Positions 33,026-53,653 of a stretch of 64,000 bases of DNA are shown in pieces. The stretch lies in assembly GCA_004297165.1 (NCBI GenBank), contig SCUJ01000006.1:1426464-1490463 (forward strand), given 5' to 3'. The notes below the pieces were generated by a model, which ran no database searches, was not told the DNA's origin, and saw nothing but the letters and a program-made list of their open reading frames with translations. The first letter of the stretch is position 1; every line of letters begins with the position of its first letter. Made by a program: the position numbers and the translations under genes. This DNA comes from Gammaproteobacteria bacterium (GTDB taxonomy: Bacteria; Pseudomonadota; Gammaproteobacteria; Eutrophobiales; Eutrophobiaceae).

Positions 33026-35437
33026 TTAGTGGTGTCTGACGGCGTCTTTCTCTGCTTCGGTAACAGGCTCCTGCTTGATCATTTCTCCAGCTTCCTTGGT
33101 TGCGATGACAGGCCCGGGCATTCGCTGCAAGGCCAAGTCCAGCACCTCGTCTATCCATCTCACCGGACGAATCGTCAGATTTTGTTTTATATTCTTGGGG
33201 ATCTCCACAAGTTCGCGTTCGTTTTCCAATGGAATCAATACGGTATCAATGCCTCCGCGCAGGGCGGCGAGCAGTTTTTCCTTCAATCCACCGATGGGCA
33301 ATACCTCGCCACGCAAGGTAATTTCGCCGGTCATCGCCACGTTGGCGCGCACGGGAATGCCCGTCAATGCCGATACCAGCGCCGTGCACATGGCTACGCC
33401 GGCGCTCGGTCCATCTTTCGGTGTGGCGCCTTCCGGCACATGGATGTGAAAATCATGCTCCTTATAGAAATCAGGCGCTATGTTAAGCACCTTGCTGCGG
33501 CTGCGCACAACGGTCATAGCGGCCTCGATGGACTCCTTCATAACCTCCCCGAGTTGGCCGGTGCGCGTCGCATTGCCTTTTCCGGGCACCACGGCGGCCT
33601 CTATGGTGAGCAGTTCGCCGCCGACCTCGGTCCAGGCCAGACCTGTGACCTGACCGACCCGATCTTCCTCTTCCGCCCTGCCAAAACGGAATTTCTTTAC
33701 GCCCAGGAGCTTTTCCAGACGAACCGGGGTGATCTGCATTTGCTTGATATCAGGCTGTTGCAGGATTTTCTTTACCACCTTGCGACAGATATTCGCGATC
33801 TCCCGCTCCAGGTTCCTGACGCCCGCTTCCCGAGTGTAATAGCGGACGATATCCCGGATAGCCGCTTCCGTGAAGGTCAGTTCGCCTGGCTGGAGTCCGT
33901 GACGTTCCAATTGCTTGGGGATCAGATAGCGCGTGGCGATCTTGAGTTTCTCGTCCTCGGTGTAACCGGAGATGCGGATGACCTCCATCCGATCCAACAA
34001 CGCCGGAGGTATATTCAAGCTGTTCGCCGTGGTGACGAACATGACCTCCGAGAGATCGTAATCCACTTCAAGATAGTGATCGTTGAAGGTATGATTTTGC
34101 TCCGGATCGAGCACTTCCAACAGCGCGGAGGCCGGATCGCCGCGGAAATCCATCGCCATTTTGTCCACTTCATCCAACAGCATCAGCGGATTCTTGTGCC
34201 CCACCTTGGCCATGCTTTGCAGGATCTTCCCGGGCAGCGATCCAATATACGTGCGGCGATGACCACGGATCTCCGCTTCATCGCGCACACCGCCCAGCGA
34301 CATGCGCACGAATTTCCGGTTGGTGGCCCGGGCGATGGAGCGTCCCAATGATGTCTTGCCTACGCCTGGCGGTCCGACCAGACAGAGGATGGGTCCCTTC
34401 AGCTTCTTGACCCGTTGCTGGACAGCGAGATATTCCAGTATGCGATCCTTGACCTTCTCCAGCCCATAATGGTCCTCTTCAAGAACCTGCTCCGCCTGTT
34501 TGATGTCGCGGGAGATCTTGCTCCGCTTTTTCCAGGGTACGTTGACCAGCCAGTCGACGTAGTTGCGCACGACCGTGGCCTCCGCCGACATGGGCGACAT
34601 CATCTTCAGCTTGTTGAGCTCGGACAGCGCCTTTTTTTTGGCCTCCGCGTGCATGCCCGAGGACTCGATCTTGCGGGCCAGTTCCTCGATCTCATTGGGG
34701 ACTTCCTCAAGGTCGCCAAGTTCTTTCTGTATCGCCTTCATCTGCTCATTCAGGTAATACTCCCGCTGGCTTTTCTCCATCTGCGACTTGACCCGTCCAC
34801 GGATGCGTTTTTCCACTTGCAGCAGGTCTATCTCGGACTCCATGAGCAGGATGATGTATTCGATTCTCTCAATCACACCGCTTAATTCGAGGATCTTCTG
34901 TTTCTCCTCGATCTTGACCGACATCTGCGAGGCAATAACATCCGCCAATCTGCTGACGTCTTCTATCCCGTTCAAGGAAGACAGGATCTCGGGCGGTACT
35001 TTCTTGTTGAGCTTCACATACTGCTCGAATTGACTCACTATCGATCGCCGATGGACATCCGTCTCGCGCGCCTCGGCAACCTGTGTCTCTACAATCTCGA
35101 TTCTCGCGGTGAACATATCGCCGTTTCCAATATATTCTGAGATTCTGGCCCGTTTCGCCCCCTCGACCAGGACCTTGATAGTGCCATCGGGTAATTTCAG
35201 CAGTTGGAGGATGTTGGCGAGCGTGCCGAACGAGTAGATGTCTTCCACGCCGGGTTCGTCCTCGGAGGCGCGCTTCTGAGCCACCAGCAGGATCTGTTTG
35301 TTGGCCGACATGGCGCGGTCCAGCGCCTTGATGGATTTTTCCCGGCCGACGAACAGCGGAATGACCATGTGCGGGTAAACCACGACATCCCGGAGGGGCA
35401 ATACTGGAAAAATATTTATACTTAAATCTGAAGTCAC
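33026..35437 (-). CDS. lon: ATP-dependent protease La (Lon)
   Basis: 803 residues (784 in E. coli). LON substrate-binding N-domain, AAA+ module with Walker [14 protein letters not shown] (about residue 357) and Walker [11 protein letters not shown], and the C-terminal protease with the Ser-Lys dyad: Ser in [15 protein letters not shown] (about 679) and Lys in [14 protein letters not shown] (about 722). It degrades misfolded and regulatory proteins in the cytosol. The start appears to be GTG at 35435-35437 with AGGTGA seven bases upstream. A near-consensus sigma-32 promoter lies at 35474-35502. It follows clpX and precedes hupB, the standard order. Confidence 0.97.
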
Positions 35438-35585: not shown

Positions 35586-36872
35586 TCAGTCGGCCTCTGA
35601 GGCCACCCTGGGAATCTCCATGCCCTTGTAGATGAGCAAAGGTTTCGCATCGCCCGTAATCACACCGCCATCGATCACCACCTTGGTCACGTTATCCAGG
35701 GAAGGCAGATCGAACATGGTGTCCAGCAATACATGTTCCAGGATGGATCGCAGGCCGCGAGCGCCGGTCTTTCGCTCCACGGATTTACGGGCGACATTGA
35801 TTAGCGCTTCATCGCGGAATTCAATATCGCAGCCTTCCATCTCGAACAACCTCGAGTATTGTTTTGTTATGGCATGTTTAGGCTCGACCAATATCCGCAC
35901 GAGTTGCTTCTCATCGAGCTCATCCAGCGTCGCAACCACAGGCAAACGGCCTACAAACTCGGGGATCAATCCATATTTAATCAAATCCTCGGGTTCGACG
36001 CCTTGCAGCAATTCACTGAGACTGCGGCGATCGCTCCTGCTGTTGACTTCGGCGGAAAATCCAATCCCGCTCTTTTCGGAACGCTCCCGAATGATCTTTT
36101 CGAGTCCCGAGAAGGCGCCGCCGCAGATGAAGAGAATATTGGAGGTGTTGACCTGGAGGAATTCCTGCTGCGGATGCTTCCTGCCTCCCTGAGGCGGAAC
36201 CGAGGCGATGGTTCCCTCGATCAGCTTCAGCAGGGCTTGCTGCACGCCCTCGCCGGAGACATCCCGCGTGATCGATGGATTGTCGGATTTACGTGAGATT
36301 TTATCGATCTCGTCGATGTATACGATGCCCGTCTGAGCCTTCTCGACGTCGTAATCGCATTTTTGCAGCAGCTTTTGAATGATGTTTTCCACATCTTCGC
36401 CGACATAACCCGCTTCGGTCAGTGTGGTGGCGTCCGCGATGGTGAATGGCACATTCAGCAGTCTCGCCAGGGTCTCGGCCAGATAGGTCTTGCCGCAACC
36501 GGTGGGACCGATCAGCAGGACATTGCTCTTCGCCAGCTCGACATCGGCTTTTTTTATGCCGGGTTCAAGGCGCTTGTAATGGTTGTATACCGCGACGGAA
36601 AGTATCTTCTTCGCCACATCCTGCGCGATCACATACTCGTCCAGGATCTTCTTGATCTCGCGTGGCGTCGGAAGTCGCTTGCCGTCGCCAACCGTAGACT
36701 TGTCCTGGATCTCCTCGCGGATGATGTCGTTGCAGAGTTCGACGCACTCATCACAGATGAATACCGAGGGTCCGGCTATCAGCTTGCGAACCTCGTGCTG
36801 ACTTTTGCCGCAAAATGAGCAATAGAGTAACCGGTCGCCGTCGCCGCTGTTGCTTTGTCTACTGTCGCCCAT
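35586..36872 (-). CDS. clpX: ClpXP protease ATPase subunit ClpX
   Basis: 428 residues (424 in E. coli). The N-terminal C4 zinc-binding domain ([16 protein letters not shown] and [10 protein letters not shown]) recruits substrates and adaptors. The AAA+ module has Walker [16 protein letters not shown] (about residue 122) and Walker [10 protein letters not shown], plus a pore loop and an IGF-type loop (here SGIGFS) for ClpP docking. It unfolds proteins and feeds them to ClpP. It starts 37 bp after the clpP stop and is probably co-transcribed with it. Confidence 0.97.
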
Positions 36873-36909: not shown

Positions 36910-37566
36910 TTAATCATTTCTCGTCCTGCCGCCGGCATCCTTGAGTTGGGTGGCCAGCGAACCCCGCATCACCAGAACCTCATCGATCAGGCCATAGCTT
37001 TTAGCATCATCGGAGCTCAGGAAATGGTCGCGTTCGGTGTCCTGCCGGATTTTCTCCAGGGGCTGCCCAGTATGTTTCGCAAGGATCGCATTGAGGCGTT
37101 CTCTCGCATTCAGGATCTCTCGGGCATGAATGTCGATATCGGTTGCCTGACCCTGGAACCCTCCCAGCGGTTGGTGAATCATCACCCGCGAATGAGGCAG
37201 GCAGCATCTTTTGCCTTTAGCGCCGCCCGCCAGCAACAGCGCACCCATGCTCGCGGCCTGCCCGACACACATGGTGCTGACTGCGGGTTTTATAAACTGC
37301 ATAGTGTCATATATGGCCAGTCCGGCGGTTACCGAGCCGCCGGGGGAGTTGATATAGAAATGGATATCCTTGTCCGGGTTTTCCGATTCGAGAAACAGTA
37401 ACTGGGCAACCACCAGATTGGCAACATGATCCTCCACCGGACCTACCAGAAAAATAACCCGCTCTTTCAACAATCTGGAGTAGATGTCATAGGAGCGCTC
37501 GCCCCGCGAGGTCTGCTCGACGACGATCGGAACCAGATTCAAGGCTTGGATTTCTTTATTAGTCAT
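36910..37566 (-). CDS. clpP: ATP-dependent Clp protease proteolytic subunit
   Basis: 218 residues. The serine protease triad is visible as S106 ([14 protein letters not shown]), H131 (VMIHQPLGG) and D180 (DTERDHFLS). The N-terminal part [21 protein letters not shown] and the [16 protein letters not shown] strand are typical of ClpP1. It forms tetradecameric barrels and works with ClpX. It follows tig by 12 bp and precedes clpX; tig-clpP-clpX is a conserved unit. Confidence 0.98.
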
Positions 37567-37578
37567 ATAGTTATGCTA

Positions 37579-38910
37579 TCACAATGTTTGCGCGGTTTCA
37601 GTCTGCCCTTTCTTCGTAAGCTCGTCAAACGTCAACTTGACCTCTCTACTCCCAGCCTTCGCCGCCACCCAATCGACCACGGCTTCTTCCAGGGCTATTA
37701 CCTCTACTTCCGCATGCCGTTCCGGATCAGAGTAGTACCAGTTGATGAATGCCGCGGGATCCTGATATCCGCTTGCCGTTCCTTCGATAATCGCACGTAC
37801 CCTGGCGGGATCCGCCTTCAAATCGTTGGTCCGGATAATTTCACCCACTACCAGTTGTAAGGTCACACGTTTCCTCGCTTCCGCATCGAAGAATGATTCA
37901 TTTTTCATCTCCGGAAATTGATCGCCCGCAAGGCCACGCGCCTTTAGGCCATCCTCGAACTGGTGTTGCAACTGATGTATTTCTCGCGCCACAAGGCTAC
38001 CCGGGATTTCGAAGCGGTTTGCTTTGAAGAGCGCCTCCATCACGGACTCCCGTGTCTTCCTTGTCACTGCTTGTTTTGACTCCGCCTCCATATGCTCCCT
38101 GACTTGCCTCCGCAATTCCTCAATGCTGCCATCGGGAATGCCCAGGGCCGTCAGAAACGCGGCATCGATCTCGGGCAAGATCGGCTCCTCCACTCGTTTT
38201 ATGGTAACGGCGAATTGCACCGGTTTCCCGGCCAGATCGGCTATGTGATATTCTTCCGGGAACTTCAGGTCGAGGACAAACTCATCGCCCGCGTTGCGAT
38301 CCAGCAGGCCATCTTCAAAGCCGCTGATTAACCTTCTTGTCGCGAGATCGACGGTAAAATCGTTCCGGGTTCCGCCCTCGAATTCGGCGCCATCGACGGC
38401 GCCCCGGAAATCAATTGTCAAAACATCTCCGGCAGTCGATTTCCGATCGGCATTCTTCAGGGTCCTGCGTTGCCGGCGCAGGGTTTCGATGGTTCGATCG
38501 ATATCAGCCTCTTCGACCGTCACACTGATCTTGTCGATGATCAGCCCTTCAATAGGCGCGAGCGTTATCTCCGGCAAGATCTCAAAGCTGGCGGTATAGG
38601 TAATTCCCTTGCCTGTTTCCGCGGATATTTTGTCGATTCTGGGCGTGGCAGCCGGCCGCAATTTTTCCTTTTCGATGGCTTCCTGGAAACTGCTTCTCAC
38701 TATTTCTCCTACAACTTCATCCCGCACCTGTGGACCAAACCGGGATTTAATTAGCTTGAACGGTGCTTTCCCCGTTCTGAAACCTTGTATTCGCGTAGTT
38801 CGTGAAAGAGTTTTCAGGCGGTTTTCAACCTCGCCACTGACTTTCTCTTCCGGGACTTCCACCTTGAGTACCTTACCCAAGGCGCCTTCTGTTTCGACTG
38901 ATATCTGCAT
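37579..38910 (-). CDS. tig: Trigger factor
   Basis: 443 residues (432 in E. coli). The ribosome-binding N-domain contains the signature loop region RIQGFRTGKAPFKLIKSRFG (G-F-R-x-G-x-x-P), a central FKBP-like PPIase domain (about 155-240, around DEFVLDLKFPEEYHIADLAG), and a long helical C-terminal chaperone domain. It binds nascent chains at the exit tunnel. First gene of the tig-clpP-clpX cluster, with tRNA-Leu just upstream. Confidence 0.97.
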   Translation of the reverse strand: MQISVETEGALGKVLKVEVPEEKVSGEVENRLKTLSRTTRIQGFRTGKAPFKLIKSRFGPQVRDEVVGEIVRSSFQEAIEKEKLRPAATPRIDKISAETGKGITYTASFEILPEITLAPIEGLIIDKISVTVEEADIDRTIETLRRQRRTLKNADRKSTAGDVLTIDFRGAVDGAEFEGGTRNDFTVDLATRRLISGFEDGLLDRNAGDEFVLDLKFPEEYHIADLAGKPVQFAVTIKRVEEPILPEIDAAFLTALGIPDGSIEELRRQVREHMEAESKQAVTRKTRESVMEALFKANRFEIPGSLVAREIHQLQHQFEDGLKARGLAGDQFPEMKNESFFDAEARKRVTLQLVVGEIIRTNDLKADPARVRAIIEGTASGYQDPAAFINWYYSDPERHAEVEVIALEEAVVDWVAAKAGSREVKLTFDELTKKGQTETAQTL

Positions 38911-38962: not shown

Positions 38963-39047
<85 letters not shown>

Positions 39048-39265: not shown

Positions 39266-39604
39266 TTAAAAACATTGTTCCTCGAAATCCTTGCAAGTAC
39301 GCCGGCATTGACGACCCCGTTGTGGGTCATAGATGCAATCCTCTCCCCAACGATTGCATACCGTCATACATTGTTTTTCCTCTCGCGTCTCATCGGAATC
39401 CCTGCGTTCGGGGATAAGTAAAGCGCCGTTTTCCGGGGCTTCCCTCCCACGCATCGGTTCGGGGACTTCGGCCTGAACCAACCTTAGTGTAGTTGTTTTG
39501 CTCGATCCGGATTCTGTGAGCATCTGCGCGCAGACCCCTGGCGTAAACTGCACGCAGATCAGAATGGATAAAACACTGAACAGATTTGAGTTAACTTTGA
39601 TCAT
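39266..39604 (-). CDS. Secreted six-cysteine small protein with a repeated CX3CX6C pattern
   Basis: 112 residues. A signal peptide ends near residue 26 (GVCAQM). The C-terminal 34 residues hold six cysteines spaced C-x3-C-x6-C-x9-C-x3-C-x6-C, a symmetrical arrangement in which both halves repeat the pattern CX3CX6C (CMTVCNRWGEDC and CRRTCKDFEEQC). This suggests an oxidised, disulfide-stabilised helical hairpin in the periplasm or outside. The region between is Pro/Glu/Arg-rich and low in complexity. I recognise no family. It is flanked by tRNA-Leu (218 bp away, nothing between) and the cyclase gene. Confidence 0.6.
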   Translation of the reverse strand: MIKVNSNLFSVLSILICVQFTPGVCAQMLTESGSSKTTTLRLVQAEVPEPMRGREAPENGALLIPERRDSDETREEKQCMTVCNRWGEDCIYDPQRGRQCRRTCKDFEEQCF

Positions 39605-39701: not shown

Positions 39702-40787
39702 TCAGGAGACATGACCGGCAGTAGGTTTTTCGTTGCTCTGATATCGTTCCGTATCCCTACCACAACCCAAGAGATGATAAATAGCCACGGGTTCCTCAAT
39801 CCCTTTCATGCGGACAAACTTGGGTTCGTCGAATTCCAGATCCTTCGACTCCACTTCCCGGACCACTTCCCTTGACACATCGATGTGCATGGGTTCGGCA
39901 TAATTGCACAACCGCGAGGCAAGATTTACCGTCTCACCGATGACTGAATAATCCAAGTGATCGTCGGATCCGATATTGCCGATCAGGACTTCGCCGACAT
40001 GCAATCCTATGCCGAGTTCGAAGGCGCTTTTATCACCCAGTTTCTGATTGCGCCGGGTGACCTCCATGATATTCAATGCACAGCGACAGGAACGCTCCAC
40101 GGCATTGTCGTAATCGAAAATCGCCATCAGGCCGTCGCCTCCGAATTTATCGATGTAACCGCCATGCGCATGCACTGAATCGACCTGCATGCCCAGATTC
40201 CGGCTGAGACGTTCAAACAGCATTTCCAGATCAACCCGCTGACTCAAGGCTGTGAAACCGCGGACGTCGGTAAACATGACGCAAACCTTATGGCGCTCCG
40301 GGGACGGCAACAATCCTGTGAGAGAATACGCTTCCACCATGCGCTGGGTTTTGGCCGAGACATACCGGTTAAGATAACGCCGCGTCTGTTCCATCTCGCT
40401 ATAATACTTGACCTTCTGCAAATGGGCCTTGAGTCGGGCCTCCAGCACGATGGGATTTACGGGTTTGTTTATGAAATCCGTCGCCCCGGCGGCGAACACC
40501 TCGCTCAGGTTGCCATCTTCCTCCATTGCAGTGATGCATATTATGGGCGTTATGCGGTATCGGGCGATGGAGCGGATGCGTTCGCATATCTCGATGCCGC
40601 CAAGACCGGGCATGTTCAAATCGATAAGGAACGCATCGATGTCTTTTTCGAGGGCAAGGAAAAGTGATTTCTCGCCACGGTCCGCTGTCACAACCTGATA
40701 GCCGTTTTTCTCCAGCATCTTGGAGAGCATCAAGCGCAGCGTACGATCATCATCCGCCACTAATACTGTTTTGGATTTCTTTTGCAC
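39702..40787 (-). CDS. Response-regulator/adenylate cyclase (REC + class III cyclase)
   Basis: 361 residues. A receiver domain (about 5-125) carries the phospho-acceptor aspartate in FLIDLNMPG (about residue 57), the acidic pocket in VLVADDDRT and the lysine in FINKPVNP. A class III nucleotidyl cyclase domain (about 165-340) has both metal aspartates, in VMFTDVRGFTALSQ and FGGDGLMAIFD, the base-specifying lysine in GYIDKFGGD, and the aspartate in LDYSVIGETVNLA, pointing to ATP. It would make cAMP under control of an unknown histidine kinase. No kinase gene is adjacent. Its start is divergent from the flavoprotein operon by 332 bp. Confidence 0.88.
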   Translation of the reverse strand: MQKKSKTVLVADDDRTLRLMLSKMLEKNGYQVVTADRGEKSLFLALEKDIDAFLIDLNMPGLGGIEICERIRSIARYRITPIICITAMEEDGNLSEVFAAGATDFINKPVNPIVLEARLKAHLQKVKYYSEMEQTRRYLNRYVSAKTQRMVEAYSLTGLLPSPERHKVCVMFTDVRGFTALSQRVDLEMLFERLSRNLGMQVDSVHAHGGYIDKFGGDGLMAIFDYDNAVERSCRCALNIMEVTRRNQKLGDKSAFELGIGLHVGEVLIGNIGSDDHLDYSVIGETVNLASRLCNYAEPMHIDVSREVVREVESKDLEFDEPKFVRMKGIEEPVAIYHLLGCGRDTERYQSNEKPTAGHVS

Positions 40788-46957: not shown

Positions 46958-48040
46958 ATGATCGGCACCAAGCCCCGCAGCCTTCAAGATGGTTTCTCGC
47001 TGATCGAATTGATGACCGCCCTGGTGTTGGGTCTGATTCTTACCGGCGGCGCCATCCAGATCTTCATCAGCAGCAAGGCCACGTACCGGACGGAAGCGGC
47101 CCTGGCGCGGATCCAGGAGACCGGGCGTTTCATCGTCGATTACATGGCCCGGGAGGTCCGCATGGCCGGGTACACCGGTTGTTCCAGCCGGGGAAACATC
47201 ACGCCCAACATCATCGCCAACAATCCCCCGCCCCTCGCCCTTAACAACGCGAACGCCCTGCTGGGATACAACGTCACTGGTGTGGATACCTGGTCGCCTG
47301 GCATTCCGGCGAGCATCCAGTTCGGACTCCAGGGGATTAACGGCGATGGAATCGCGGATAGCGATGTCATCAACATCATGCGGGCGGACGAATGCGGCGC
47401 TACCGTAGTAGGCAACTGGGATGTCACCAATGCCAATGTGCAAGTGGCCTATCCCAATACCTGCGGCTTCGAACAACACCGGCCGGTGATCATCTCGGAC
47501 TGCGTCAATACCGACATCTTCCAGATCGTAAGCAATCCCAACGCCAGCGGAAATAAACAGACACTTACCCACAGTAATTCCGGTAATACTGGTAATTTCC
47601 TGGCCCAGAACTACGGCCCTGATTCCCAGATCTCCGTCCCCCGTTCCAACTCCTTCTTCATCGCGCCCGGCACCAGCGGAGAACCGGCGCTGTACATGGC
47701 GTCCTGGCATACCAACGATGATGACGATACCGTGGATACAGATGATTTCGACATCATGGAACTGGCGGATGGCGTGGAAGATCTCCAAATCCTCTACGGA
47801 GAGGATACGGGCGGTGGGGATCTGTATGCCGACAGCTATGTGGCGGCCAGCGCCGTAACCGACTGGTCGGCGGTCAGAAGCGTACGCATCATGCTCCTGT
47901 TGCGGAGCGATGACCGGGTCACCGAGGAACCGCGGGCAATCACTTTCAATGGCGCCGTGGTCAACAGCGGCGCCGGTGCCGACCGCCGCCTGCGCATGGT
48001 CTATATCTCTACTGTCACGGTCCGCAACCGCTTACCCTAA
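46958..48040 (+). CDS. pilW: Type IV pilus minor pilin PilW
   Basis: 360 residues. Prepilin site DG|FSLIELMTALVLGLILTGGA with the PilW-typical RTEAALARIQETGRFIVDYM, and a large extracytoplasmic domain. PilW minor pilins are larger than FimT and PilV, as here. With PilX and PilY1 it sits at or near the pilus tip. Three bases from pilV and 12 before pilX, so the genes form one transcript. Confidence 0.9.
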   Translation: MIGTKPRSLQDGFSLIELMTALVLGLILTGGAIQIFISSKATYRTEAALARIQETGRFIVDYMAREVRMAGYTGCSSRGNITPNIIANNPPPLALNNANALLGYNVTGVDTWSPGIPASIQFGLQGINGDGIADSDVINIMRADECGATVVGNWDVTNANVQVAYPNTCGFEQHRPVIISDCVNTDIFQIVSNPNASGNKQTLTHSNSGNTGNFLAQNYGPDSQISVPRSNSFFIAPGTSGEPALYMASWHTNDDDDTVDTDDFDIMELADGVEDLQILYGEDTGGGDLYADSYVAASAVTDWSAVRSVRIMLLLRSDDRVTEEPRAITFNGAVVNSGAGADRRLRMVYISTVTVRNRLP

Positions 48041-48052
48041 GGGAGTTCGCTG

Positions 48053-48559
48053 ATGATCCTTTCACATCACAATCAGTCCGGCGCCGCCCTGATCGTCTGC
48101 CTCATGTTGCTGTTGATCATGACCCTGATCGGGGTCAGCGCCATCACCAGTTCCACCATGGAAGAAAAGATGGCCGGCAACGTCCTCAACAAACACCTGT
48201 CGTTTCAGGCCGCCGAGACCGCCCTGCGCACGGGCGAGACTGTCGCCGCTGGGCTCGCTGCGGATACCGTCTTTGACGGGACCGGAGGCCTTTACCCGAG
48301 ATCCAATGTTGACGACACCGATTACCCCATCTGGGAAAACGCCGCCACCTGGGTGAATGCCGTTTCAGACCCGGCGCTGGCCCAGCAACCCCAGTACATC
48401 ATCGAGAATTTCGGGACCGCACCGCGCGATGCCAATTGCATGCTGGAAGTACCGCTTAAGGCAGGCTGTCTGCTCCCCGTCTACCGTGTTTCGGCGCAGG
48501 GATGGGGACTCAATACCAACGCCGTATCCTTGATCCAGACCACCTACAAGCAATTGTAA
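48053..48559 (+). CDS. pilX: Type IV pilus assembly protein PilX
   Basis: 168 residues. Its N-terminus QSGAALIVCLMLLLIMTLIGVSAI is PilX-type: no conserved E5, but the typical G-A-A-L segment followed by the STMEEKMAGN motif. A soluble domain with two cysteines completes it. It interacts with PilY1 and minor pilins. GGGAG precedes the ATG. It is followed by pilY1 with a 45-bp gap. Confidence 0.88.
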   Translation: MILSHHNQSGAALIVCLMLLLIMTLIGVSAITSSTMEEKMAGNVLNKHLSFQAAETALRTGETVAAGLAADTVFDGTGGLYPRSNVDDTDYPIWENAATWVNAVSDPALAQQPQYIIENFGTAPRDANCMLEVPLKAGCLLPVYRVSAQGWGLNTNAVSLIQTTYKQL

Positions 48560-48604
48560 TCAGGATGGCCGTGTGCCGCCTGTCTCTCACAGGAGATCGT
48601 CATC

Positions 48605-51600
48605 ATGAAGTTGCAAAAGACCGGACTCAACGGGAATAAGCTGAAATGGCTACTGCTGGGGATTCTGTCCGGCATGAATGCCGGGGCAGCGCCCTTGAAT
48701 CTCCCCGACGTGCCCCTGTTCGTCTCCAACGTCAAGGAACCGCCGCTTATCCTGCTCACCATGGGCCGGGACCACAAGCTCTATTACGAGGCCTATAACG
48801 ACGCCTCGGACCTCAACGACGACGGCAATCTGGATATTCGTTACGACCCTTCCATCGACTATTACGGTTATTTCGATTCCAGCAAGTGTTACACCTATTC
48901 CTCGACCGATACCAGATTTGAACCCACGGTCTTTACCAGCGACAAGACATGCAGCGGCGCGTTTGAATGGAGCGGCGATTTTCTGAATTACCTGACCACC
49001 TCCAGGATGGACGCCCTGCGCGGCGTGCTCTACGGTGGGTACCGCAGCACCGATACTGCTTCACTCACCGTCCTGGAGCGGAGCTACATCCCCCAGGATG
49101 CCCATAGTTGGGGCAAGGAATACACCAGTATCGCTGTGGATGGTTTTGACATCCGGGATTACACCCCTCTGGATTTACCAGCGACCGACAAGCGCCACCT
49201 GTTCGCCAATACGACATTAGGATCCTCCAGTACGGTGGGAGCACCTCTACTTAGAGTCCTTAACGATTCCCCCTACAGGGTATGGGAATGGCTGTCCATC
49301 GAGCGGCCCGTTGCTGGTAGTAAATGTGTCAACCAGAGCACCAATTGCGTGACCGCCGCGCCAACTCCAAGCTATGTCATCGTCCCGGCAAGCGCCACGG
49401 AAGGGTTGAGCGACATCACCCGACAAGTCTATAAAAATACCGGTTGCGGCAGCGGCTGCGATCAGACACCGGACAACTACTCCGAAATGGATGCCTTCCA
49501 AACCGTTGCCGTCGGGAACGGGGTTTTCGGTTCCGACACACCCACCAATATCGATAATGCCAACAGTGACGATGACTTTACCAGTCCGCCTCTCACAAAT
49601 GACTATTTCACCCTGATAACAGGCACTCTGAACATAACCCTTGGGGGCTCGTATTACTTTGGAGTCGATGGCGACGATGGCGTGGAATTTTCCATCGACA
49701 CCACGGGTGACGGATTTACCTCGACGGATGTCATAGCCACTTTTTACGGTTCGCACGGTTTCAGCAGCTCGCCAAGCACCCACAGCGGTCTCGTGATACT
49801 CCCTCCCGGCAGTTATGACTTCCGTTACCGGCATGCCGAGGATGGCGTCGACGCCGGTTTCAAACTGTTCTGGGCCCCGCCCACCGGCGGCGTCGCCAGC
49901 ACCATGACGGACTTCACCGTACGGGTAAAAGTCTGCGTCTCCGGACTGCTCGAGTCCAACTGCAAGCAATATCCGGACGGCAACTACAAGCCAACCGGGA
50001 TCCTGCATCAGTACGGAGAAAACGACAGCATGAAGTTCGGTCTGTTGACGGGTTCCTATAAAAAGAATCTCAGCGGCGGCATCCTGCGCAAGAAGATGGG
50101 ATCGTTCACGGATGAGGTTAATATCAACACTGACGGCACACTGACAAGTACAGTAGGCATCATCAAGACCATCAACAATCTCAGGGTCATTGGTTTTAGT
50201 GGCGGAGGCACTTATACGCATGATTCCAATTGCGGCTTCGTCTTCAACCAACCCCGAGTAGAAGGCGATTGCCGGCTCTGGGGCAACCCCATCGCCGAGA
50301 TGATGTACGAAGGGACTCGCTATTTCGCCGGCAAGGCGACGCCGACCTCGGATTTCACATTTACTACCACTGGCACGGATGACGCCACTCTGGGTCTGCC
50401 CTTCCCCGCCTGGGATAATCCCTACGATCCCACCACCGGCGCCAACGAATGCGCCCTGCCCATGCAACTCGTGATCTCGGACATCAACCCCTCCTACGAC
50501 ACCGACAAACTGCCGGGGGTGAACAGCAACTTCGGCAGTTTCACCGGGGATGTGACCGGACTGGATGTGGAGGATATCGCCGATTCCGTCATCACCCCGA
50601 ATGAACCCGAGATCCCCGGCAATCACTTCATCGGCCAGGTGGGGGCGACTTATAACGGCGCACCCACCCCCAAGACCGTGACCACCGTGGGTGCGATCCG
50701 CGGCCTTGCCCCGGAGGAACCCACCAAGCAGGGTGGCTACTACTCCAGTTCTGTCTCGTATTTTGGCAAGAACGAGGACATCAATCCCGTCACGGGCAGC
50801 CAGCATATCACCACGCTCGCTGTGGCGGTCGCTTCACCCCTGCCTAAATTCGAGATCCCGGTGGCGGGTAAAATCGTCACCCTGGTGCCCTTCGCCAAAT
50901 CCGTCGGCGGTGGGTCCTGGGGCATCAATAAAAATGAGGGGCAGTTCCAGCCCACCAATGCCATTGTCGATTTCTACGTCGAGGATATTGCCAACACCAA
51001 TGCCCTGAACGCCGACCCAGGCACCAACAATGGTCTGCCTTACTACAAATTCCGCATCAACTTCGAGGACGCCGAGGCGGGCGCGGACCATGACATGGAC
51101 GCCATTGTGGAGTATACATTCTTCGTCGATGATAACGGCACAGCAAGCGATAACTCCGACGATACCGTATCCGTCGAACTCAACTCCTTGTATGCCGCGG
51201 GGTCCGTAATTCAGCACTTGGGCTATGTCATCTCCGGCACGACCACGGATGGGATCTACCTGGAGTTACGGGATACCGATACCGCCAGCGGGAGCGATGT
51301 GGATTATTTCCTGGATACGCCAAATACCGCCTCAACCGCGTTGCCCTTAACCAGCAACCGGAGCTTTACTCCAGGCTCGACCACCGCCGCCACGCTGATG
51401 AAGGACCCGCTGTGGTACGCCGCGAAGTGGGGCGGTTTCCAGGATTCGAATGACAATGACCTGCCGGACCAGCAATCCGAGTGGGACGAGGACAGCGATG
51501 GGATCCCGGATACCTATTTCCTGGTTACCAACGCCGGCAAACTCAAGGAACAACTTGACGCCACCTTCCAGAAGATTACCGAGCTGGTGGGGGCATCGGC

Positions 51601-53653
51601 CTCGTCCGTGGCCATCAACTCCACGGTTTTGCGCACCAACGCCAGACTCTACCAGGCCAAGTTCAATACCGCCGACTGGTCCGGCGAGTTATCCGCCTTC
51701 ACCCTTAACTCGGACGCGACCATCAATAGCGAGGTATGGCGGGCTACGGAACACATACCGGATGCCGCAAGCCGCAAGATATTCACTTCCGTTGATAAAA
51801 GCGGGACGCTCACCCCCATACTTTTCAACGACAGCGACGCGGACCTGGTCGCGGCGATCGGCAGCACAGATCTCGTTAATTATCTGCGCGGCGATGCCGC
51901 CAATGAGTTGGCAAACGGCGGACTCTTCCGGGATCGAAGTGTGCGCCTGGCGGACATTATCAATGCCTCGCCAGTGTCGGTCGGCGCCGACAATTTCTTT
52001 TACAATGTGCTGTCCACAGCGAATGGCGGCGCCGCTTATAACTCCTATCTTGCGCAGAAGGTGAATAACTATAAGGATACCGACGACAAGACTTTTTCCA
52101 TCGTCTTCGCCGGCAGCAATGACGGGATGATACATGCCTTCCAGGACACCTGGGATACGGATCCGAGCAATGCCGGCAAGGAGATATTCGCCTATGTTCC
52201 CAGCGTCCTCCACGGCGGCCTGAGCGAGCTTGCCTCCACCGGTTACGACCATCGATATTATGTGGACGCCTCTCCCTTCGTGAGCGATGTCTTTTTCGAC
52301 TTCGACAGTGACGGCGTGCCCGAGGCCACCGACTGGCGCACCATGTTGGTCGGCGCCTTGGGCGGCGGCGGCCGCTCCGTTTACGCCATCGATGTAACCG
52401 ATGTCCATACACTGGTTACTTCTGACGTCGATACTTTCGATATCAGCGACGTCATGTGGGAATACAATGTCACCGATCCCACCAGCGTCAGCAGTTCCGA
52501 TCACAGCGAACAGATGGGATACATCATGTCTCAGCCACAACTGGTGCTGTTGAACAACGACAAATTTGCGGTCATCTTCGGCAACGGCTACAACAGCTAC
52601 AGCCACAGGGCGCAACTTTTCATCCTGGACGCGGAGACCGGCGCCGAGATCAAGGTGATCGATACCGAAGTTGGAAGTTCCGGCACGCCCAACGGTCTCG
52701 CCATGCCCTTCCTCCTGGATGAGAATGGCGATCGCAAGGTCGATACCGTTTACGCCGGGGACCTGCTAGGCAATATGTGGAAATTCGACCTGAAGGGGGG
52801 TAGCGTCAGTTCCTGGGGCGTGGCCTACAAGACGGGCAGTACCCCCAAACCGCTCATCACCATTGCGGACGGACTTGGCGCGGCACAGGCGATCACGACC
52901 AGACCTGTCGTGGTCAAACATCCCACTTCAGGGTTTGTCGTCCTGTTCGGCACCGGCAAATACCTGGAAACAGGCGATAATATTTTGCCACTATCCCCAC
53001 AGGAGCAGTCTTTCTATGGCGTCCGGGACAGCGGCGCGAAGATTACCACCGGCCGGAGCGAGTTGCTGGAGCAAACCATTCTGGCCGAAATAGATATCTA
53101 TGACGATCACGACACTCCGGCTACGGGTGACGATACGTTCCTGAATACTACACGCGTGGTCACCGAGACTCAGGTCGATTACACAGTCGACAAGGGTTGG
53201 TTCATTGACCTGGTTTCGCCCAATCCCGCGGATCCGCCGGTGCCGCCCTCCTTTGCCAAGGGCGAGATGGTAATCTCAAATCCGCTGACCCGGTTCGAGC
53301 GGGTGATCTTCACCACTTTCATCCCTCCCGAAGACCCCTGCACCGATGCCGGCGGCACCGCGGTTTTGATGGAAGTGGATGCGGTCAATGGAGCCCGGCT
53401 GGAAAACTCGGTATTTGATCTGAATAACGATAGCGTGATCGATGCAGAGGATTTTGTCGATCTTGAAGGCATTGCAGTCCCCGGCAGTGGTATATTCATT
53501 CCTGCCACCCTGGCTTCTCCAGCCGTCATCTCCGCTGAAGACGCCAGCAAGGAATTCAAACTGACTTCCGGGATCTCGGGCACCATAACAACGACTCAAG
53601 AAGCGACCGGAGGCATAACTGTCGGCCGTCAATCCTGGCGCCAGATCAGATAG
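48605..53653 (+). CDS. pilY1: PilY1-type pilus tip adhesin with inserted PA14-like domain
   Basis: 1682 residues, larger than most PilY1. A Sec signal (GNKLKWLLLGILSGMNAGAA), then the conserved PPLILLTMGRDHKLYYEAYN start and an EF-hand-like DLNDDGNLDIRYD loop near residue 75. Residues ~324-426 look like a PA14-type sugar-binding module (YYFGVDGDDGVEFSIDTTGD, ILPPGSYDFRYRHAEDG). Calcium-loop-like motifs (DEDSDGIPD near 962, DFDSDGVPEATDW near 1232) and the C-terminal PilC-type beta-propeller (AYVPSVLHGGLSELAS, YYVDASPFVSDV) follow. It should sit at the pilus tip and control retraction or adhesion. AGGAGA precedes the ATG. Confidence 0.92.
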   Translation: MKLQKTGLNGNKLKWLLLGILSGMNAGAAPLNLPDVPLFVSNVKEPPLILLTMGRDHKLYYEAYNDASDLNDDGNLDIRYDPSIDYYGYFDSSKCYTYSSTDTRFEPTVFTSDKTCSGAFEWSGDFLNYLTTSRMDALRGVLYGGYRSTDTASLTVLERSYIPQDAHSWGKEYTSIAVDGFDIRDYTPLDLPATDKRHLFANTTLGSSSTVGAPLLRVLNDSPYRVWEWLSIERPVAGSKCVNQSTNCVTAAPTPSYVIVPASATEGLSDITRQVYKNTGCGSGCDQTPDNYSEMDAFQTVAVGNGVFGSDTPTNIDNANSDDDFTSPPLTNDYFTLITGTLNITLGGSYYFGVDGDDGVEFSIDTTGDGFTSTDVIATFYGSHGFSSSPSTHSGLVILPPGSYDFRYRHAEDGVDAGFKLFWAPPTGGVASTMTDFTVRVKVCVSGLLESNCKQYPDGNYKPTGILHQYGENDSMKFGLLTGSYKKNLSGGILRKKMGSFTDEVNINTDGTLTSTVGIIKTINNLRVIGFSGGGTYTHDSNCGFVFNQPRVEGDCRLWGNPIAEMMYEGTRYFAGKATPTSDFTFTTTGTDDATLGLPFPAWDNPYDPTTGANECALPMQLVISDINPSYDTDKLPGVNSNFGSFTGDVTGLDVEDIADSVITPNEPEIPGNHFIGQVGATYNGAPTPKTVTTVGAIRGLAPEEPTKQGGYYSSSVSYFGKNEDINPVTGSQHITTLAVAVASPLPKFEIPVAGKIVTLVPFAKSVGGGSWGINKNEGQFQPTNAIVDFYVEDIANTNALNADPGTNNGLPYYKFRINFEDAEAGADHDMDAIVEYTFFVDDNGTASDNSDDTVSVELNSLYAAGSVIQHLGYVISGTTTDGIYLELRDTDTASGSDVDYFLDTPNTASTALPLTSNRSFTPGSTTAATLMKDPLWYAAKWGGFQDSNDNDLPDQQSEWDEDSDGIPDTYFLVTNAGKLKEQLDATFQKITELVGASASSVAINSTVLRTNARLYQAKFNTADWSGELSAFTLNSDATINSEVWRATEHIPDAASRKIFTSVDKSGTLTPILFNDSDADLVAAIGSTDLVNYLRGDAANELANGGLFRDRSVRLADIINASPVSVGADNFFYNVLSTANGGAAYNSYLAQKVNNYKDTDDKTFSIVFAGSNDGMIHAFQDTWDTDPSNAGKEIFAYVPSVLHGGLSELASTGYDHRYYVDASPFVSDVFFDFDSDGVPEATDWRTMLVGALGGGGRSVYAIDVTDVHTLVTSDVDTFDISDVMWEYNVTDPTSVSSSDHSEQMGYIMSQPQLVLLNNDKFAVIFGNGYNSYSHRAQLFILDAETGAEIKVIDTEVGSSGTPNGLAMPFLLDENGDRKVDTVYAGDLLGNMWKFDLKGGSVSSWGVAYKTGSTPKPLITIADGLGAAQAITTRPVVVKHPTSGFVVLFGTGKYLETGDNILPLSPQEQSFYGVRDSGAKITTGRSELLEQTILAEIDIYDDHDTPATGDDTFLNTTRVVTETQVDYTVDKGWFIDLVSPNPADPPVPPSFAKGEMVISNPLTRFERVIFTTFIPPEDPCTDAGGTAVLMEVDAVNGARLENSVFDLNNDSVIDAEDFVDLEGIAVPGSGIFIPATLASPAVISAEDASKEFKLTSGISGTITTTQEATGGITVGRQSWRQIR

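Follow-up and report, generated by a model that had tools for sequence, protein, structure and literature searches.

A predicted exported protein with six cysteines in a repeated pattern, found across a gammaproteobacterial order and usually encoded upstream of tig

The described systems closest to the protein reported here are the small Tim proteins (Tim8/9/10/12/13), helical hairpins with twin CX3C motifs, whose compartment reviewers have compared with the periplasm and which the same review names as one case of proteins with an origin independent of bacterial ancestors (PMC5203823). Comparable cysteine layouts occur in CHCH proteins such as the mitochondrial, helical COA6, with CX9C-CX10C (PMC8773535), in plant alpha-hairpinins, with C1X3C2XnC3X3C4 and a six-cysteine form, CX3CX3CX4-20CX3CX3C (PMC11591084), in the aphid BCR3 peptide, whose first half reads CX3CX6C (PMC9604261), and in the Csp copper storage proteins, four-helix Cu(I)-binding bundles with CXXXC motifs and many cysteines, none of which is in a disulfide in apo-MtCsp3 (PMC5171941). 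CX3CX6C is also found within Frizzled/glypican-type domains of a different layout (ECOD, PMC4256011). As described in the cited passages, none of the small Tims, CHCH proteins, alpha-hairpinins, BCR3, beta-hairpin antimicrobials (PMC7761999) or Csp proteins shows a direct duplication of CX3CX6C.

That spacing, twice in succession, ends a protein encoded on the minus strand of the window (the whole stretch of 64,000 nucleotides that was analysed), with the translation MIKVNSNLFSVLSILICVQFTPGVCAQ...GALLIPERRDSDETREEKQCMTVCNRWGEDCIYDPQRGRQCRRTCKDFEEQCF; read on the plus strand, 39266-39604 is broken by stops. Residues C79, C83, C90, C100, C104 and C111 (C1 to C6 below) are spaced exactly C-x3-C-x6-C-x9-C-x3-C-x6-C, so that the two halves repeat each other as the original prediction had said, and two further cysteines, C17 and C25, lie within the predicted signal peptide. 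The gene and its parts are as follows.

39266..39604, minus strand: gene for the predicted exported six-cysteine hairpin protein, 112 aa, stop codon within the span
39527..39604, minus strand: predicted type-I signal peptide, residues 1-26, with the cut after VCA placed by eye
39410..39436, minus strand: PxxGxLxLP linker motif, residues 57-65 (PENGALLIP), a candidate docking peptide, from conservation
39335..39370, minus strand: repeat 1, residues 79-90 (CMTVCNRWGEDC), from alignments and repeat comparison
39308..39334, minus strand: hairpin tip of variable length, residues 91-99, from length variation; a turn in both AlphaFold2 models
39272..39307, minus strand: repeat 2, residues 100-111 (CRRTCKDFEEQC), from alignments and repeat comparison

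That this frame is translated, as had been supposed, was borne out by its substitution pattern. The dN/dS ratio, taken from computed dN and dS values, was 0.08-0.38 in 17 of 19 pairs (each >72% identical), with dS saturated in the remaining two; the same codon comparison placed 584 of 980 differences at third codon positions, and TGT and TGC both occur at each cysteine. The six-cysteine gene is real, and purifying selection acts on its frame. A scan for promoters and terminators gave no signal above shuffled sequence.

We followed the cysteines through two sets of loci, one found by protein similarity and one by pattern search. A loose pattern, with x3 fixed and x4-9 and the loop free, recovered the motif in 30/30 loci of the former and 36/36 of the latter, which argues that the motif is not due to chance. 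The x3/x6 spacing is kept in all motif-bearing loci, the middle loop alone varying in length (longest in L066), and length change within the domain is confined to the tip between C90 and C100. Since the pattern used to collect the second set itself demanded C2, W, G and C3, the similarity set is the less biased of the two; in it, the six cysteines and the tryptophan are invariant in all 29 aligned loci, the thirtieth (L023, which ends in CY) having been removed by a filter. Among the 36 full-length members (the window and 35 of the 36 pattern-searched loci, L056 being left out for a masked run), the six cysteines, W86 and G87 are invariant throughout, so the cysteine spacing is kept in orthologues as had been expected. 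A wider set (A2) of 41 domains, other families included, was filtered on the six cysteines and the tryptophan, which the filter itself therefore makes invariant there; under a looser filter no further row was lost. The second aromatic position, which this filter did not demand, is F/Y in 38 of the 41 and L in three, and its residue is not aromatic in L007, a locus of set A1 outside the 41.

The likeness between the halves goes beyond their spacing. Both fit C-x2-[V/T]-C-x2-[W/F]-[G/A/T]-[E/Q]-[D/E]-C, and their non-cysteine columns also match (permutation fraction 0.00025 in 20000 trials that shuffled the non-cysteine columns of the second half, 41 sequences), in keeping with the internal duplication originally proposed. 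This sequence comparison supports an origin of the six cysteines by duplication of a 12-residue unit, while shared structural constraint could also raise the similarity.

The original prediction knew of no bacterial family with this layout, and our searches agree. The window protein had no Pfam match at E 5, two chance-level matches in NCBIfam and chance-level matches among PDB sequences, none of them credible. The 36 members likewise gave no credible family, with scattered best E values of 0.0027 (Pfam), 0.055 (PHROGs) and 0.017 (NCBIfam); among the Pfam matches, three of the 36 members weakly matched DUF326 (best E 0.0027), which we take to be a family covering copper storage proteins, and four weakly matched Conotoxin (best E 0.0039). 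The A2 profile found one weak and unrelated ribosomal match among PDB chains (E 0.019), a result that leaves room for remote homology. Foldseek gave no match at E 0.001 or better, and a second look with VIA gave a best Z of 2.9 (rmsd 4.4 over 46 residues) and no informative relative; the PDB matches by sequence and by fold were generic hairpins, or toxin-barrel or cystine-knot hairpins. A literature search of open-licence PMC for the cysteine spacing, bacterial twin CX3C proteins, small disulfide-rich periplasmic proteins and a gene upstream of tig did not find a description of the protein. Thus, in the libraries searched, the six-cysteine protein has no credible match to a described family.

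Nor was there a credible sequence match to any of the systems introduced above, so the comparison is one of layout. If C3 and C6 are ignored, the protein has the small Tim arrangement, CX3C-X16-CX3C (C79/C83 and C100/C104 with 16 residues between), in 29/29 and 36/36 aligned members; it differs from small Tims in two extra invariant cysteines, in the strands predicted by AlphaFold2 and in being bacterial with a signal peptide, and the A2 profile revealed no sequence homology to solved small Tims among PDB chains. As in the CX9C-CX10C pattern of COA6 (PMC8773535), C1-x10-C3 and C4-x10-C6 would give two end staples, but each arm here has an extra cysteine, whereas COA6 is mitochondrial and helical, and the same profile search gave no match to CHCH/COA6. 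We set aside membership of the alpha-hairpinins, since C90 falls inside their X stretch and the spacing here is CX3CX6C twice; this protein is also bacterial, and the cited passages on alpha-hairpinins mention no W/F repeat (PMC11591084). In BCR3, the second half is mirrored (CX6CX3C), the middle is longer and the source is an insect (PMC9604261). Membership of the Csp/DUF326 group, suggested by the CXXXC motifs, was not supported by profile search, the window protein having no match and the three members matching weakly.

Several features of the sequence bear on where the protein resides. Reading each frame from its first ATG, we saw a hydrophobic 12-mer in the N-terminus, together with a permissive AXA-like site, in 36/36 full-length members, as expected for the secreted or envelope protein originally predicted, and a lipobox in none of the 36; the protein is thus likely to be exported by Sec and to undergo type I cleavage. 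L072 and L075, relatives from beyond the order, look by eye like lipoproteins (ASSC and LSAC). A variable, acidic linker joins the signal to the hairpin and carries a conserved P-x2-G-x-L-x-L-P, the strict form G-x-[LI]-x-[LI]-P of which occurs in 29/36 members and a relaxed form in 32/36, with P65 present in 34/36. The same genome encodes DsbB, together with a DsbA-family protein recognised by a partial match (positions 70-181 of 191).

Evidence on the fold is divided. For the window protein (36 alignment rows), AlphaFold2 predicted strands at 79-93 and 97-111, with pLDDT 95-97 in blocks 81-110, 52-73 in the preceding blocks and pTM 0.35; for the L058 domain (34 rows), it predicted strands at 12-27 and 33-48 with a mean pLDDT of 85.9, the five models scoring 85.9, 84.8, 84.3, 65.1 and 48.0, the last two poor. 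The pLDDT is >=90 over 33 residues in each prediction, and the strand limits, as we read them, place C1 opposite C6 and C3 opposite C4 in both, although the two alignments are shallow and largely overlapping. By contrast, the hydrophobic moment at helical angles exceeds that of permuted sequences in arm 2 (p 0.0035-0.043) and less clearly in arm 1 (p 0.014-0.16), while no such excess is seen at the strand angle (p 0.66 or more). Of the two hydrophobicity scales, one treated cysteine as buried. Periodicity computed from entropy is not decisive, with a tendency towards strand in arm 2 (p 0.06-0.08). When a helical hairpin is idealised, just one of the 15 possible pairings, the nested one, closes all three disulfides, whereas no more than two can close in an ideal beta-hairpin; this geometric argument is weak, because in a control the middle cysteine could also be offset by 3, 4, 7 or 8 with a close fit (residual 0.26 or less), and by 5 or 6 with a nearly close one.

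The helical hairpin of the original prediction, which is also the small Tim fold, therefore keeps the support of hydrophobic periodicity and disulfide geometry but is contradicted by the beta-hairpin in both AlphaFold2 predictions, and this disagreement makes the third disulfide unsure, the beta model leaving C2 and C5 unpaired. The same disagreement gives structure prediction a sharp test in this minimal duplicated hairpin. Should the arms prove helical, bacteria would seem to have made twin-CX3C hairpins independently.

To place the gene across genomes, we searched 96 of them with the protein and found 47 with a match, all within the window's own family; with a profile, the order (represented in this genome set by a single family) gave matches in 47/53 genomes, 18/18 genera and 32/33 good genomes. 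Copy number is usually single. Of the six order genomes with no match (G001, G011, G014, G023, G042 and G045), four (G001, G014, G042 and G045) also lacked any match in a search with trigger factor, and the other two, G011 and G023, have tig at the edge of a contig, with just 204 bases ahead of tRNA-Leu in G011; there is therefore no clear absence in the order. In G024, listed as 100% complete, the copy (L106) is split over two frames with internal stops, which is either a decayed gene or an assembly fault; unless the assembly is in error, the protein is not needed everywhere. In a genus with 1.0-1.5 Mb assemblies, four of six genomes match. Beyond the order, an even sample of the class gave matches in 11/369 genomes, seven of them outside the window's own family. 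From another search of the class, two weak matches (L076 and L077) were dropped as relatives for having no six-cysteine motif; in a phylum sample, 6/398 genomes matched, the window's own genome alone convincingly and the others partially at E 2.4e-4 or worse. At E 0.01, the window protein matched nothing in plasmid or phage collections. One record titled Klebsiella pneumoniae (a MAG, L059) carries the order's gene and gene order and is probably mislabelled.

The gene order around the cysteine gene in the window comprises the following neighbours.

39702..40787, minus strand: response-regulator receiver and nucleotidyl cyclase gene (Pfam), upstream, 97 bases before the cysteine gene
38963..39047, minus strand: tRNA-Leu (anticodon UAG), the usual downstream neighbour, the same tRNA lying downstream in 34/36 loci
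37579..38910, minus strand: tig, trigger factor, usual downstream neighbour, from a Pfam match and gene order
36910-37566, minus-strand neighbour series: clpP, after tig, named by sequence recognition
35586-36872, downstream series after clpP: clpX, named by sequence recognition
33026-35437, downstream series after clpX: lon, named by sequence recognition

The names clpP, clpX and lon are our presumptive assignments, made by recognising the sequences and with no family search. Gene order was tallied over 36 loci taken from named genome records, L046 and L048 belonging to a single MAG. In 33 of these, tig is found on the strand of the cysteine gene, 138-942 bases further downstream. Clustering of open reading frames placed clpP next in 29/36, clpX in 28/36 and lon in 31/36, counts to be read knowing that some contigs end early and that the ORF picker hid some genes. 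The order cysteine gene, tRNA-Leu, tig, clpP, clpX, lon recurs in families f140 (L105) and f97 (L101). The receiver-cyclase gene lies directly upstream in 10/36 loci, in the window and in f140, at a gap estimated to be within about 130 bases, a recurrence that makes a shared transcript possible; it was not found adjacent in 26/36 loci, four of which have less than 1.2 kb of upstream contig and one of which (L041) has it 2.3 kb away. An order-wide protein with no family model in the libraries searched, kept also in 1.2-1.5 Mb assemblies and mostly tied to tig-clpP-clpX-lon, offers a directly testable case for both its loss and its role.

Weighing these results, we lean tentatively, and a little short of even confidence, towards a Dsb-oxidised, disulfide-stapled periplasmic hairpin on a flexible linker that would serve as a constitutive binding or assembly module (adaptor or chaperone-like). 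Sec would export the miniprotein to the periplasm, with a lipoprotein anchor in some relatives, and the mature form would consist of a disordered acidic linker with G-x-L-x-L-P followed by a C-terminal hairpin of ~34 residues, its two arms probably derived by duplication of the 12-residue unit. Oxidation by the Dsb system would staple the two ends of the hairpin through C1-C6 and C3-C4 and, were the arms helical, add C2-C5 as a third rung, while the conserved W, F and basic R-x-C-R-R face may bind an envelope partner and the linker motif may dock or tether the hairpin. Core status, gene order and retention in 4/6 genomes of the small-assembly genus speak against a weapon and for housekeeping work in the envelope. 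Only the gene neighbourhood and the analogy with small Tims (PMC5203823) speak for a chaperone-like reading, whose fullest version, an independent bacterial counterpart of mitochondrial twin-CX3C/CHCH proteins in which a three-rung helical hairpin (C1-C6, C2-C5, C3-C4) acts as an ATP-independent periplasmic chaperone or assembly factor, encoded upstream of cytoplasmic tig, clpP, clpX and lon, strikes us as very improbable.

If the hairpin is instead a beta-hairpin stapled by C1-C6 and C3-C4, the unpaired C2 and C5 on opposite faces might link copies or partners through intermolecular disulfides. This agrees with the register that AlphaFold2 gave twice, with the limit of two pairings in an ideal beta-hairpin and with the entropy periodicity of arm 2; we nevertheless regard it as unlikely, given the hydrophobic periodicity, the shallow, overlapping alignments (36 and 34 rows) with two of five models poor (65.1 and 48.0), and the fact that unpaired invariant cysteines would be unusual in the periplasm. 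Thiols free to bind metal would make the two CX3C motifs an envelope site for a soft metal such as Cu(I), as in Csp3, whose CXXXC motifs on single helices bind Cu(I) (PMC5171941). Cysteines at i, i+4 and i+11 would share one face of a helix (at 100 degrees per residue), and there are the weak DUF326 matches; but the window protein lacks any Pfam match, Csp3 monomers are four-helix bundles with far more cysteines (18 in MtCsp3; PMC5171941), and the family has no conserved histidine and a methionine only at position 80, where M/I/L/V occur, so that we consider metal binding improbable.

Just as improbable, to us, is a role in the envelope as a redox-active thiol carrier or sensor, perhaps linked to the receiver-cyclase gene. 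The pairing with that gene in 10/36 loci, the window and one other family would suit it, as would the convergent glutaredoxin-domain gene with an N-terminal signal-like stretch in L070, but the hairpin has no CXXC motif, the cyclase gene was not found adjacent in 26/36 loci, and receiver and cyclase domains are cytoplasmic whereas the cysteine protein is predicted to be exported. Least credible of all, and remote in our judgement, is a secreted antimicrobial or effector hairpin, tachyplesin-like or alpha-hairpinin-like, the role of small disulfide-rich effector having been one suggestion of the original prediction. The motif of the alpha-hairpinins is CX3C..CX3C (PMC11591084), animals have antimicrobial beta-hairpins with two disulfides (PMC7761999), R-x-C-R-R-x-C-K is basic and four members weakly match Conotoxin; yet the linker is acidic, L072 and L075 read as lipoproteins, and the gene is usually single-copy and order-wide, mostly in one fixed order beside housekeeping genes, with no plasmid or phage match. 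It is this core status that led us to rank an effector or antimicrobial role low.

Departures from the usual gene order were also seen. Both tRNA-Leu and tig are missing beside the gene in L031 and L066, and in L048 the tRNA alone is present, the contig ending 661 bases on. In the genome of L031 (G006), tig is on another contig, a case of relocation or of a chimeric contig. A second subfamily (f133, f92 and f120; loci L102, L103 and L104) ends in CE with a loop of NVDPRG or DVDPRG and adjoins what we take to be trmB rather than tig, a presumed HAD gene intervening in two of the three loci that were read, both names resting on our recognition of the sequences; tRNA-Leu and tig are present in these genomes, with no cysteine motif within up to 1.5 kb upstream. 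The place beside tig may simply reflect an old gene order and, with a tRNA gene between, need not require a shared transcript or function. In L070, a DUF4124-glutaredoxin gene with a signal-like start (1697-2194) lies between the cysteine gene and tRNA-Leu, convergent with the former. Elsewhere in the window, 46958-53653 on the plus strand encodes a PilW-like minor pilin and a PilY1 protein of 1682 aa.
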